A stretch of 64,000 nucleotides of DNA from Companilactobacillus alimentarius DSM 20249 (GTDB lineage Bacteria; Bacillota; Bacilli; Lactobacillales; Lactobacillaceae): assembly GCF_002849895.1 (NCBI RefSeq), contig NZ_CP018867.1, positions 1,302,001-1,366,000 on the forward strand, read 5' to 3'. Position numbers and translations under genes: made by a program. The notes beneath the pieces are model-generated. The model was given only the letters and a program-made list of their open reading frames with translations. It was not told the origin of the DNA and ran no database searches. This document shows positions 35,600 to 52,104 of this stretch, piece after piece. Every line of letters begins with the position of its first letter. Position 1 is the first letter of the stretch.

Positions 35600-35807
35600 A
35601 AAAAAAGCGCCTATTGTATTACAATAGGACGCTTGCACGTGGTACCACCTGTTTTGTAGAATTTATCTACCACTCTCGGCTTTAAAGTTGCCACCTTTAC
35701 CCATTTCCTAAAACAAGGTCGATAACTTTCTCAGCCATGAAGTTATTCTCTGAACCAACTTACTTGAATTAGTACTCAAAAATGCTTATGCTTTAATATA
35801 CTCTAAT
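35600..35807 (-). ncRNA. T-box riboswitch (tRNA-Trp) of trpS
   Basis: The conserved antiterminator AGGTGGTACCACG is at 35650-35638 and the terminator hairpin with a U run at 35634-35600. In stem I an AGTA, a CAGAGA bulge and, on the 3' strand, GAAA-TGG-G (TGG at 35703-35701) reproduce the loop-E/specifier arrangement of known T-boxes; TGG is the Trp codon. The leader is compact, about 200 bases from the predicted start. Confidence 0.92.
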
Positions 35808-44125: not shown

Positions 44126-44199
44126 AGCCGTCTATCGGATTTGAACCGATGACCTCCACCTTACCATGGTGGCGCTCTACCTATCTGAGCTAAGACGGC
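44126..44199 (-). tRNA. tRNA-Thr (anticodon GGT)
   Basis: A full cloverleaf: acceptor GCCGTCT/AGACGGC, D arm GCTC/GAGC, anticodon arm CCACC/GGTGG with loop ATGGTAA (anticodon GGT at 44165-44163), and T arm ATCGG-TTCGAAT-CCGAT. The discriminator base is U and the CCA end is not encoded. Confidence 0.95.
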
Positions 44200-48382: not shown

Positions 48383-48482
48383 ATTGTTCCCTCGTTCCTA
48401 CTATACTATACGACGTATAATATCATTTAATTAACAATATGCTTTAATTAATAGTATAAGTCAATTCTAGAAATAAAAATGC

Positions 48483-48511
48483 TTGACAATAAACTCTCTA
48501 GGAAGTAAGAT
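48483..48511 (+). promoter_or_regulatory. Promoter of the amino-acid ABC transporter operon
   Basis: TTGACA (48483-48488), 17-base spacer, TAAGAT (48506-48511). Predicted start near 48518, giving a leader of about 410 bases. Confidence 0.8.
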
Positions 48512-48544
48512 AATTTCAACATTTTAAAACAAATATAAAAAACG

Positions 48545-48785
48545 ACGACAGAAGAGTAATTGAGTAAACTAGTCCAGAGAGTCAACGTTGGTGCGAGTTG
48601 TCCTAGTCCTTAATGAAACACATCTGTAAGTTGAATGATTGAAAAACAGTAGATCATTTCGGTAGCACCGTTACAGCTGAAGTTATTGTAACTTCATGAG
48701 TCTAATATTGTGAGATATTAGAAACCAGAGGTGGTACCGCGAATATTCGCCCTCTTGATCTTTTGAGATCAAGAGGGCGTTTTTT
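48545..48785 (+). ncRNA. T-box riboswitch, specifier CAC (His), first terminator unit
   Basis: Stem I shows AGTA (48555-48558), CAGAGAG, the distal loop GGTGCGA and, on the 3' strand, GAAA-CAC-A with CAC at 48619-48621, in the position occupied by the specifier in glyQS leaders. Stem III is at 48701-48722, the antiterminator AGGTGGTACCGCG at 48729-48741, and a terminator hairpin with T run at 48748-48785. A histidine codon fits a HisJ-type transporter, but the UGGU of the antiterminator does not match the C73 expected for tRNA-His, so the specificity is not certain. Confidence 0.85.
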
Positions 48786-48810
48786 ATTTTCAGTATCTTT
48801 TATTTACAAT

Positions 48811-48905
48811 GACTTCTTGAGGTTAATATCGTGAGGTATTAACGAACTAAGGTGGAACCACGTGAAAACGTCCTTTAGCAATAATTGCTAAGGGACGTTT
48901 TTTTT
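48811..48905 (+). promoter_or_regulatory. Second T-box antiterminator/terminator unit without stem I
   Basis: Contains a stem III copy (48822-48829 with 48836-48843), the T-box core AAGGTGGAACCACG (48849-48862) and a 14-bp terminator (48867-48880 with 48886-48899) followed by T8. Bases from about 48812 are similar to the first unit from about 48692. No stem I or specifier fits in the ~30 bases before it. The acceptor-pairing bases are UGGA, versus UGGU in the first unit. Confidence 0.8.
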
Positions 48906-48928
48906 ATATTTGAAAAGGGGAAGAAATT

Positions 48929-49582
48929 ATGATCAATTATATTTTTGAAATTTTACCATCGCTTCTCAGCGGTACCGTTATGACTTTGAAAATCTTCTTT
49001 TGGACTTTGATCTGTTCATTGCCACTAGGAATATTAGTATCACTAGGACGCAGTTCTAAATTCAAACCATTGAGTTGGATTATCTCATTTTATATCTGGG
49101 TTATGCGTGGAACTCCATTACTTCTACAACTGATTTTCGTTTTCTACGGACTACCTAATATGCCCTTTGCCCATATTGTTTTTGAAAGATATGATGCGGC
49201 CCTCTTCGCTTTTATCCTCAATTACACTGCTTATTTTGCCGAGATTTTCCGTGGTGGCTTTGGAACTGTCAGCACTGGACAATTCGAGGGCGCTAAAGTT
49301 TTAGGACTAAATTATTGGCAAACAATTCGTAAAATAATCATTCCACAAGTTGTTAAGATTGTCCTACCTTCAATTGGTAACGAAGTTATTAACTTAGTTA
49401 AAGATTCATCTTTGGTTTATGTAATTGGTCTAGGGGATCTCTTAAGAGCTGGAAATATTGCCAGTTCCCGTGACGTTACCTTATTACCACTAGTTTTAGT
49501 GGGTATCATCTATCTACTGTTAACTTTGATCTGCACTTGGATCTTAAAAATCTTAGAAAAGCGCTTTAGTTATTACCGTTAG
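48929..49582 (+). CDS. Polar amino-acid ABC transporter permease (HisM/GlnP type)
   Basis: 217 aa with five helices; the EAA-type loop is seen in EGAKVLGLNYWQTIRKIIIPQ, which contacts the ATPase. Start ATG after GGGGAAG. First gene of a three-gene operon controlled by the T-box leader; histidine is the predicted substrate from the specifier. Confidence 0.88.
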   Translation: MINYIFEILPSLLSGTVMTLKIFFWTLICSLPLGILVSLGRSSKFKPLSWIISFYIWVMRGTPLLLQLIFVFYGLPNMPFAHIVFERYDAALFAFILNYTAYFAEIFRGGFGTVSTGQFEGAKVLGLNYWQTIRKIIIPQVVKIVLPSIGNEVINLVKDSSLVYVIGLGDLLRAGNIASSRDVTLLPLVLVGIIYLLLTLICTWILKILEKRFSYYR

Positions 49583-49593
49583 GAGAGAGAATT

Positions 49594-50232
49594 ATGTTGA
49601 AATTAACAAATATCACAAAAAGTTTTGATGGCAAAACCATTCTTGATAATTTAAATTTAGAAGTCAAAGATAATTCAATTTTAAGTATCGTGGGTCCCAG
49701 TGGTGCTGGTAAAACAACCCTCTTACGTTGTATTGCAGGACTAGAAAGAGTCGATTCAGGAACTTTTTCTTTAAATAATCAACCATTCGATCCTTATGAT
49801 GAATCAGTCAAAGAACGGGTCATTGGCGTCGTCTTCCAAGATTTCAATCTTTTCCCTCATCTGTCAGTCATGGAAAACATTTCTTTAGCACCAAAATTGG
49901 TCCTAAAACAAGATCAAACTACCGTTCAAAATAACGTCAATAACCTGTTGGAACAATTAGGACTCACTTCTTTAAAAAATCAATATCCGTTCGAACTATC
50001 AGGTGGACAAAAACAACGAGTTGCCATTGCGAGAGCTTTGGCTATGCAACCACAAATACTCTGCTACGATGAACCAACTTCCGCACTCGATCCTAGTTTG
50101 CGTGACACCGTGGCTCAAGTTATCCTTGATTTGAAAAAAACTGGCATTACACAAATTGTCATTACTCATGATCCTGATTTTGCTAAAAAAATTGCCGATC
50201 AATTGCTCGAAGTTAAACCGTTAAACGATTAG
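49594..50232 (+). CDS. Polar amino-acid ABC transporter ATP-binding protein
   Basis: 212 aa: Walker A GPSGAGKTTLL, Q-loop VFQDFNLFPH, signature LSGGQKQR and Walker B ILCYDEPTSALDP. About 30 residues shorter at the C-terminus than typical GlnQ. Eleven bases after the permease gene. Confidence 0.9.
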   Translation: MLKLTNITKSFDGKTILDNLNLEVKDNSILSIVGPSGAGKTTLLRCIAGLERVDSGTFSLNNQPFDPYDESVKERVIGVVFQDFNLFPHLSVMENISLAPKLVLKQDQTTVQNNVNNLLEQLGLTSLKNQYPFELSGGQKQRVAIARALAMQPQILCYDEPTSALDPSLRDTVAQVILDLKKTGITQIVITHDPDFAKKIADQLLEVKPLND

Positions 50233-50251: not shown

Positions 50252-51106
50252 ATGAAGAAAAAAATTTTAATATTTATCGCACTATTATTCTTTGCCTTGG
50301 GATTGACCGGTTGCAGCAGCAATCAAAAGTCGGTCGCTCAACAAGCTAATACTGCTGATACTTGGTCACACATCAAAAAACGCGGTCGAGTTATTATCGG
50401 TTTAGACGATACTTTCGTGCCAATGGGCTTTCGACAAAAAGATGGCAAGCTTGTCGGTTTCGATATTGATTTAGCCAAAGCAGTTTTCAAACAGTACGGT
50501 ATCAAAGCTGACTTTCAGCCTATTGATTGGAATATGAAAGAAACTGAACTTAGAAACCAGACAATTGATCTAATCTGGAATGGTTATACGATTACACCAG
50601 CTAGAGAAAAACAATTAGCCTTCTCACGTCCTTATATGGCTAACCGTCAAGTTCTAGTAACTAAGACTTCAGAGAAAATCAATTCCTTCAAAGGTATGCA
50701 GAATAAAACCTTAGGAGTTCAAACCAGTTCTTCTGGTGCCAGTTTGCTGGACGAACATCCCACAATGTTAAAAAATTACATCAAGAATAAAACGCCAGTC
50801 CTCTATGATTCCTTTAATAATGCTTTAATGGACCTAGATGACAATCGGATTCAAGGACTCTTGATTGATAGTGTCTACGCTGGTTACTATATTAGTAAAG
50901 AAAAAGATCCCGATTCATACAACACGACCCGCGGCGGTTTCAGTGGTGAAGACTTTGCCGTTGGTATGCGTAAAGGCGACAAAACTCTCAAGAAAAAAAT
51001 TGACACCGGATTGCAACATTTATCTAACACTGGTGAGTTACAAAAAATTAGTCAAAAGTGGTTTGGTAATTCTGACAATATTCTAATAAAACCAAATAAT
51101 AAGTAA
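50252..51106 (+). CDS. Amino-acid ABC transporter substrate-binding lipoprotein
   Basis: 284 aa. Lipoprotein signal peptide with lipobox LTGC (Cys at ~21). SBP-bac-3 fold: GLDDTFVPMGFRQKDGKLVGFDIDLA-type opening and IDLIWNGYT. Binds an amino acid outside the membrane for the permease. The sequence alone does not fix the ligand. Confidence 0.9.
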   Translation: MKKKILIFIALLFFALGLTGCSSNQKSVAQQANTADTWSHIKKRGRVIIGLDDTFVPMGFRQKDGKLVGFDIDLAKAVFKQYGIKADFQPIDWNMKETELRNQTIDLIWNGYTITPAREKQLAFSRPYMANRQVLVTKTSEKINSFKGMQNKTLGVQTSSSGASLLDEHPTMLKNYIKNKTPVLYDSFNNALMDLDDNRIQGLLIDSVYAGYYISKEKDPDSYNTTRGGFSGEDFAVGMRKGDKTLKKKIDTGLQHLSNTGELQKISQKWFGNSDNILIKPNNK

Positions 51107-51173
51107 AAAGCATCCATTTAGAAGTCCAAACGATTTTTGAAATCGGTGAGACTTAATAAATAGATGCCTTTTT
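51105..51173. terminator. Long bidirectional terminator hairpin
   Basis: Outer arms 51107-51120 and 51157-51170 enclose an inner GAAGTC/GACTT and CGATTT/AAATCG stem, flanked by A and T runs. Ends the transporter operon and the convergent ADP-ribosylglycohydrolase gene. Confidence 0.82.
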
Positions 51174-52104
51174 ATTTTGCTTCTATTTTGGCAAACGGAT
51201 CAATAATCCCCTGCAATAAGGGTAAATTTTGTAATTGACCGACCCAATTTGAATCAACTCGATCAGACAAATACTGGCAGCTAGCCATTGTTCCTGCAAT
51301 ACTAGCAATCGTATCTGTATCCTCTCCTAAATTGACCGCTAAAATAATTGCTTCATTGATTGATTTAGAATTCAAAACAGTCCAAACTACTGCTAATAAA
51401 GTATCTACCACATAACCAGTCGATTTGATATTATCGCGACTACGATCCTTAAATCCTGGCTGAAAAATAGCTTGATAATAATCGAATTCTTTCCATTCAA
51501 TCGCATCAACAGCTCCACGAAATTCATTGGGTAAAACTTGTAAAGTATCGGTAAGATTTTTTCCATTTAATAAACTGTGTAATATTTCTAAATAAATATA
51601 ACTGGCCATAATTGCTCGAGGATGACGATGGGTCAAAGTTGTATAATTCTTTGTTAAAGCTAATCTCTTTTTCAAATCAGATTCATTTCTCAAATCAATT
51701 GCTAGTGGTGCCAGACGCATGAGAGCACCATTGCCGTTTGCAAATTCACTCGGATCACCACATTCAAGTGCTGGATAATGATTTATTGACCAATTTCGAA
51801 TCGCTTTAGCACACGTTTGTCCAATCCCAAAGGCTATATTATTAGGCGTGAATTGATTGTCATACATGTACTCTTCAAATTTCTGCATTAATTGTTCATA
51901 ATCTCCGCCTTCAACCAAATTACTCATTAAGGGTAATGTAAAGGAAGTATCATCCGACCAACTACCCGCTGGTTGTTCCCAAGTACCGCCACTTTCCATC
52001 GTATCGACATAATAAGAATCCCGTTTAGCAAACTCAAACGGAACACCAATGGCATCTCCCACGATTCCTGAATATAAAATATTTTTAATCTGAGCAATAT
52101 TCAC
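51172..52104 (-). CDS. ADP-ribosylglycohydrolase family protein (DraG-like)
   Basis: 310 aa all-helical fold. Metal-binding motifs SWSDDTSFTLPLM near residues 48-60 and GEDTDTIASIAG near the C-terminus. The family removes ADP-ribose from proteins or small molecules. No partner ADP-ribosyltransferase was seen in the window; a sirtuin is 24 kb away. CGGAGAT precedes the ATG. Confidence 0.85.
   Translation of the reverse strand: MNIAQIKNILYSGIVGDAIGVPFEFAKRDSYYVDTMESGGTWEQPAGSWSDDTSFTLPLMSNLVEGGDYEQLMQKFEEYMYDNQFTPNNIAFGIGQTCAKAIRNWSINHYPALECGDPSEFANGNGALMRLAPLAIDLRNESDLKKRLALTKNYTTLTHRHPRAIMASYIYLEILHSLLNGKNLTDTLQVLPNEFRGAVDAIEWKEFDYYQAIFQPGFKDRSRDNIKSTGYVVDTLLAVVWTVLNSKSINEAIILAVNLGEDTDTIASIAGTMASCQYLSDRVDSNWVGQLQNLPLLQGIIDPFAKIEAK

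Follow-up and report, generated by a model that had tools for sequence, protein, structure and literature searches.

Vitreschak et al. reportedly announced, in the abstract of a 2008 study, a class of T-box with duplicated terminator-antiterminator elements. Partly doubled T-boxes have been described, as a sequence-only reading of the present locus had noted; a 2020 review names them "partially tandem" and calls their mode of action unknown (PMC7583486). For histidine genes, a survey built on the Rfam model assigned most his regulatory regions one T-box only, described tandem T-boxes ahead of the transporter in five species of Enterococcus, and gave hisYZX as a His T-box target in Lactobacillales; the idea that double T-boxes sharpen the response is repeated there (PMC9413887).

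The leader studied here lies in a 64,000-nucleotide stretch (the window, whose first letter is position 1) of the 2.4-Mb genome of Companilactobacillus alimentarius DSM 20249. Judged from its sequence, it is a histidine-specific, partially tandem T-box, in which one stem I/II is followed by two consecutive discriminator/terminator units.

Architecture and specificity of the leader

The Rfam check proposed in the sequence-only reading returned one full T-box call (RF00230) at 48536-48757, with 114.1 bits against a gathering score of 93 and model positions 1-219 covered, and no second stem I was found. Unit 2 received no Rfam call at the gathering threshold. Scanned separately, 48770-48930 matched only positions 104-219 of the 219 in the model (31.4 bits, E of 9e-6, 5'-cut), that is, its 3' half without stem I. 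A search of both strands of 48400-48940 yielded two terminator-like hairpins, compared with a mean of 0.4 in shuffled sequences, and the two units aligned with each other at a score of 68, against 44 or less in 500 shuffles. Because only 24 nt, the U-tract counted, separate the end of the terminator-1 stem (48779) from the strand designated a'2 (48804), there is no space for a second stem I.

Unit 2 taken alone is thus not a complete T-box, its own stem I being absent, nor is the leader a fully tandem T-box, having no second stem I and a spacing of 121 nt between the cores of units 1 and 2. With one stem I and two discriminator/terminator units, it belongs to the partially tandem T-boxes. The arrangement originally read from the letters, one stem I before two stem III/antiterminator/terminator units, was borne out by the full and partial Rfam matches, the hairpins and the folds, and its coordinates were correct (Table 1).

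Table 1. Features of the leader and the downstream operon, in window coordinates
Feature	Position	Strand	Evidence
Promoter-like TTGACA-17-TAAGAT	48483..48511	+	consensus scan, 10/12 matches; weak evidence
T-box stem I (sole one)	48542..48631	+	Rfam RF00230 alignment; approximate borders
Specifier CAC (His) within GAA-A-CAC-ATCTG	48619..48621	+	sequence
Stem II	48634..48659	+	Rfam alignment; approximate borders
Stem IIA/B pseudoknot region	48660..48678	+	IIA by Rfam alignment; 3' pseudoknot strand read from sequence
Strand a, partner a'1 locally or a'2 long-range	48679..48691	+	fold, energy and covariation tests
Strand a'1 of local linker hairpin 48678-48685/48689-48696	48689..48696	+	fold; hairpin -6.3 kcal/mol
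Stem III, unit 1	48701..48722	+	fold
T-box core, unit 1, AGGTGGTACCGCG, part of antiterminator 1	48729..48741	+	sequence, Rfam
Terminator 1: 14-bp stem 48748-48779, then U-tract	48748..48790	+	hairpin scan, fold
Strand a'2, 13 pairs to strand a including one G-U	48804..48816	+	-15.7 kcal/mol; covariation
Stem III, unit 2	48822..48843	+	fold, z -4.7
T-box core, unit 2, AGGTGGAACCACG, part of antiterminator 2	48850..48862	+	sequence, partial Rfam-model match
Terminator 2: stem 48864-48902 plus U-tract	48864..48906	+	hairpin scan, fold
Polar amino-acid ABC transporter permease, hisY-type by context	48929..49582	+	NCBIfam HEQRo_perm_3TM above cut-off
ABC transporter ATP-binding protein	49594..50232	+	25 families shown, all below curated cut-offs: general kind only
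Amino-acid-binding lipoprotein	50252..51106	+	15 families, all below curated cut-offs: general kind only

The promoter-like site is one of 5 in the scanned region, where shuffled sequences gave a mean of 2.6, so it counts as weak evidence. The downstream operon is probably of the hisYZX type, for histidine uptake; the histidine specificity of the transporter rests on the his survey (PMC9413887).

The specifier CAC fits the host tRNA-His (anticodon GTG), which ARAGORN found among the 15 of 30 tRNA loci scanned. The motif GAA-N(1-2)-CAC-R was matched by a regular expression in 98 of the 115 distinct two-unit leaders described below. The tRNA-His gene (L104, 2343-2417) was read as having C73 opposite G-1 and no encoded CCA end. 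The variable base of UGGN is U in unit 1 and A in unit 2 and does not match this C73. Since TBDB leaves the base-73 match out for His, where C73 can be paired (PMC7778990), the mismatch was not taken as defining. Across leaders the variable base rarely fits C73, being G in 1 of 121 (unit 1) and 6 of 121 (unit 2). A threonine specifier, ACA, one base further on, with which UGGA would fit U73, was considered and rejected: CAC followed by a purine agrees with the geometry and the C rule in the review (PMC7583486), and the operon is already reported as a His T-box target in the survey (PMC9413887). The idea that unit 2 is tuned to a different tRNA through its discriminator base is likewise unsupported, as N varies in both units.

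Three further features lie in the window: a tRNA-Thr gene (anticodon GGT) at 44126-44199 on the minus strand, about 4 kb upstream of the leader; a T-box match at 35622-35796, also on the minus strand, which at 49.2 bits is below the gathering score; and, just past the operon at 51172-52104 (minus strand), a gene for an ADP-ribosylglycohydrolase-like protein (Tri1/DRAG family models, below curated cut-offs).

Distribution of the two-unit layout

The permease was matched in 216 of 295 genomes of the order (E <= 1e-40), and the closest relatives at the locus were other Companilactobacillus, with permeases 89-96% identical (L021-L045). A search for the same layout in related species, as the earlier reading had suggested, found two cores 101-129 nt apart upstream of the permease in 79 of 80 relatives; the 80th (L071) had only 94 bases upstream, too short to judge. 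These 79 include Companilactobacillus, Lentilactobacillus, Limosilactobacillus, Levilactobacillus, Lactobacillus, Pediococcus and Furfurilactobacillus.

A second set of 80 further leaders was drawn from the places listed in the order-wide permease search. Parsed by regular expression, 41 of them had two cores 80-170 nt apart, six being identical to first-set leaders; they include a second family label (f3) and one leader of a third (f9). Nine had a wider core spacing of 175-402 nt, and the remaining 30 had one core, none, or cores that the expression missed. Fifteen of the 39 unparsed leaders were read by eye. Two of these (L147 and L163) had two units missed by the core expression and were left out of the counts, which are therefore lower bounds. 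In L153 (label f1g2), with cores 175 nt apart, unit 2 seemingly has, by eye, its own IIA/B-like segment and linker hairpin, without space for a second stem I; this leader is possibly an intermediate between the full and partial tandem forms. In L188, which has a single core, the downstream stretch is still a'2-like by eye, as if unit 2 had been lost.

The window, the 79 relatives and the 41 further leaders gave 121 parsed two-unit leaders, 115 of them distinct. A hairpin with a U-run was present at both units in all 121. An antiterminator helix, counted when at least 5 of 6 pairs formed and it overlapped the terminator, was found in 115 of 121 at unit 1 and in 108 of 121 at unit 2. A strict two-core pattern was matched in 19 of 198 genomes of the order sample; the looser reading gave more, since departures from this pattern are common among the cores. 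In the same genome as the window there were 20 T-box model matches, five over the cut-off; by regular expression, 16 had one core, three had none (L001, L006 and L020), and only the His leader had two.

The internal duplication seen in the sequence-only reading stands insofar as the two units are related. It is not a local event: with the layout present in 79 of 80 relatives and 41 of 80 further leaders, a recent, genome-specific duplication was rejected. On these sequence comparisons, the two-unit layout is old and common to several genera and a second family label.

Two alternative partners for strand a

The local hairpin a:a'1 lies between the IIA/B pseudoknot and stem III-1. Strand a'2 directly precedes stem III-2, just as a'1 precedes stem III-1, and is complementary to the same strand a. 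This complementarity is kept despite changed letters, as in Lactobacillus (GGTTGATTAT with ATAATCAACC), Furfurilactobacillus (GGAGTTTATAAAC with GTTTATAAACTCC) and label f1g6 (GTGGTTGAAAAACG with CGTTTTTCAACCAC). For 73 unique leaders of the 80, the mean a:a'2 energy was -16.0 kcal/mol, compared with -6.1 kcal/mol when strands were swapped between genera and -5.3 kcal/mol when they were shuffled; the badly anchored L038 and L070 were kept in this mean.

The difference persisted when one leader was taken per genus label (25 labels after merging, the merge of f1g4 with Limosilactobacillus being a guess). Strand a paired with its own a'2 at -14.1 kcal/mol and off the diagonal at -5.7 kcal/mol, and none of 20,000 permutations was as low, the lowest reaching -8.7 kcal/mol. 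The own a'2 ranked first in 20 of the 25 labels; f3g27 ranked 10th and f9g49 17th, at least partly because the fixed windows cut strands.

Covariation was examined in a register of 12 pairs anchored on stem III-2, with the strand-a offset chosen from six. Of 121 leaders tried, 119 could be anchored (L150 and L169 could not), leaving 82 unique ones. Standard pairs filled 89.6% of this register, against a mean of 66.8% and a maximum of 70.4% in refitted shuffles and 35-48% in slides. Both sides had changed in 271 cells (shuffle mean 163, maximum 195); extra pair types, numbering 47, were not above shuffles (mean 44.5, maximum 49). At each of pairs 7-12, positions that in the window fall within the local hairpin's loop or past it, five or six kinds of standard pair occurred. 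Among the 16 unique Companilactobacillus leaders, four have A-T instead of T-A at pair 8, and one has C-G instead of A-T at pair 7.

In 98 of 115 distinct leaders (104 of 121 with duplicates included), no site of the transcript paired better with strand a than a'2; another site outscored it in the other 17, which counts against the mechanism proposed below. The long-range helix was stronger than the local hairpin in all 115, with means of -16.8 and -6.2 kcal/mol, the loop cost not being counted. Conservation of the a:a'2 pairing by covariation is thus well supported by sequence comparison.

Strand a'2 as a plain copy of a'1 is an insufficient account, since a'2 also covaries with the loop positions (pairs 7-12). 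Part of the complementarity could have been inherited, with a'2 descending from a'1, which leaves the pairing of the loop positions unexplained. The a:a'2 helix extends into the loop of the local a:a'1 hairpin in the manner of a toehold.

By modelling, a:a'1 and a:a'2 are predicted to exclude each other. When each of the 115 distinct leaders was cut short after terminator 1, its minimum-energy fold had a:a'1 in 93 cases; with the transcript extended to just short of core 2, a:a'2 was present in 86, and 71 leaders gave both results. At full length, a:a'2 was predicted in only 73, a:a'1 in 33 and neither in 9. As the folds leave out tRNA, pseudoknots and kinetics, these counts describe possibility and not behavior.

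A candidate hand-off mechanism and related systems

According to the 2020 review, stem III and the antiterminator form one charging sensor, and the pseudoknot is suggested to position purines ahead of stem III (PMC7583486). In the leader modelled here, a:a' would be the link between this sensor and the pseudoknot. Comparison supports the possibility of both pairings, the a:a'2 covariation, the overlap of terminator and antiterminator and the single stem I. From these, we consider it probable that a'2 displaces a'1 and that one tRNA goes through two successive tests. In the first step, strand a would pair with a'1 while unit 1 is synthesized, so that stem III-1 and antiterminator 1 are offered to the 3' end of the tRNA; a charged tRNA would lead to a stop at terminator 1 and an uncharged one to read-through. 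In the second, a'2 would emerge after read-through, nucleate on the loop of a:a'1 and displace a'1. Unit 1 would then be looped out and unit 2 docked at the same point relative to stem I/II; terminator 1 may at this stage form without harm, which would release the tRNA end to meet antiterminator 2. In the third, antiterminator 2, set against terminator 2, would probe the 3' end of this tRNA once more; only a tRNA that passed both tests would allow expression of the transporter. Such a series gate would multiply leak-through down and add a delay, in a proofreading-like manner, and a sharper off-state or steeper response can fairly be expected of it. Displacement, the order of events, reuse of one tRNA and the physiological gain are the parts that we infer.

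Active displacement may be either a necessity or the weak point of this hand-off. In a single-molecule study of glyQS, the tRNA stayed fully bound for long periods, and only about 10% of traces went back to the state bound by the anticodon alone (PMC6197855). By analogy, the tRNA end may not leave unit 1 unaided, and spontaneous release would be disfavored.

Two terminators in series might also work without any hand-off, if a tRNA bound to stem I reached both antiterminators through flexible RNA and a:a'2 merely compacted or protected the read-through RNA. One stem I with two discriminators is in principle enough for a series gate, and a:a'1 is still predicted in 33 of the 115 distinct full-length leaders. 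We nevertheless regard this as unlikely, given that a:a'2 covaries across genera and family labels and that the placement of a'2 before stem III-2, mirroring that of a'1 before stem III-1, suggests a positioning role.

It is less probable still that unit 2 is a tRNA-independent, fail-safe terminator that limits leak-through, its antiterminator core being a relic. Core 2 is indeed more variable than core 1 (e.g., AGGTGGAAACACG and AGGTGGCACAGCG), and the antiterminator helix is the rarer one in unit 2 (108 against 115 of 121). However, a relic should decay, whereas stem III-2, the core-2 UGG and the antiterminator segment over terminator 2 are conserved between genera, and a terminator opened by nothing would hold the operon permanently low.

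Least credible is the binding of a second, independent tRNA (or another tRNA species) to unit 2 without codon recognition: unit 2 has the stem III and antiterminator that the review calls necessary and sufficient to sense aminoacylation, and the two units carry different variable UGGN bases in this leader (U, then A) as well as in others, but this base rarely fits C73 in either unit and so says little about specificity, tRNA identity is assigned in the same review to stem I (PMC7583486), which unit 2 does not have, and a:a'2 would be left unexplained.

The sequence-only reading had offered either one specifier hairpin controlling two terminators or a second unit working without codon recognition. 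The evidence favors the former, given that a strand retained in unit 2 covaries with, and can pair to, the segment beside stem I/II; the long-range helix itself had been missed.

Outside the class, a similar layout recurred. Two cores 98-128 nt apart were found in 29 of 398 sampled phylum genomes, including that of the window, the other 28 all lying outside the class; the strict pattern found no three cores in series in the 398. Loci were obtained for 29 (L232-L260) of the 31 such places besides that of the window. Six downstream frames were tested by their first 60 residues: L246 matched the anthranilate synthase component I N-terminal region above the cut-off, L249 matched DAHP synthetase just below it, and the other four gave no match. 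Many of these leaders have a strand of the CCCGTACC type ahead of each stem III, its partner being GGTATCGG downstream of the pseudoknot; in L253, L256 and L259 this strand's second copy extends into the first hairpin's loop, as in the window. For 19 representatives, the mean self energy was -21.4 kcal/mol, against a permuted mean of -14.9 kcal/mol, with none of 20,000 permutations as low. The own a'2 ranked among the first five of 29 in 18 leaders and sixth or lower in 11 (25th in L238, 21st in L246 and 17th in L244), and in a cruder test it beat the best of 50 shuffles in only 7 of 29; the fixed windows may take in part of terminator 1 (e.g., in L232). We lean, if only slightly, toward a phylum-wide generalization in which partially tandem T-boxes for several amino acids use toehold strand exchange: the second a' copy would capture strand a, and the sensor with its tRNA would pass from discriminator 1 to discriminator 2, so that one tRNA is tested for charging twice in a row.

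These out-of-class leaders are among the systems closest to the one described here. Many share the second a'-like strand before the second stem III. They differ in the genes that follow (among the six tested, a DAHP-synthase-like and an anthranilate-synthase N-terminal match) and often have a common GGTATCGG/CCCGTACC linker core, so that their covariation falls mostly in the loop part. Before the same operon, single T-boxes (L174, L179 and L212) share the target gene family and have only one core by regular expression; L174 and L179 also have CAC in the specifier region and a local linker hairpin before stem III, as here, but on reading have no second unit. Eight widely spaced leaders of this operon (L175, L177, L178, L180, L191, L204, L207 and L208) have cores 256-402 nt apart and are presumably fully tandem T-boxes, this spacing fitting a second stem I, of which there is none here. 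The Enterococcus tandem T-boxes likewise place two cores before the operon (PMC9413887). The single-T-box picture in that survey needs qualification, as the Rfam model misses unit 2 of the present leader at threshold.

The layout itself is already known. The exchange helix is apparently undescribed: no description was found in the accessible portions of the open-licence literature, including PMC2494555, PMC9413887, PMC7778990, PMC7583486, PMC12452182, PMC11477304, PMC2965389, PMC6197855 and PMC8704770, and the main text of PMC12452182, on contiguous riboswitches, has no mention of "partial" or "histidine". The present leader thus shares with the described partially tandem T-boxes one stem I followed by two discriminator/terminator units, and differs from their account in the part of the review available (PMC7583486) by the covarying helix, predicted to form as either a:a'1 or a:a'2, and by the hand-off that it implies. 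This helix provides a concrete, testable mechanism and a sequence rule by which leaders of this kind can be recognized, as well as a naturally occurring case in which one riboswitch sensor may pass between two expression platforms.
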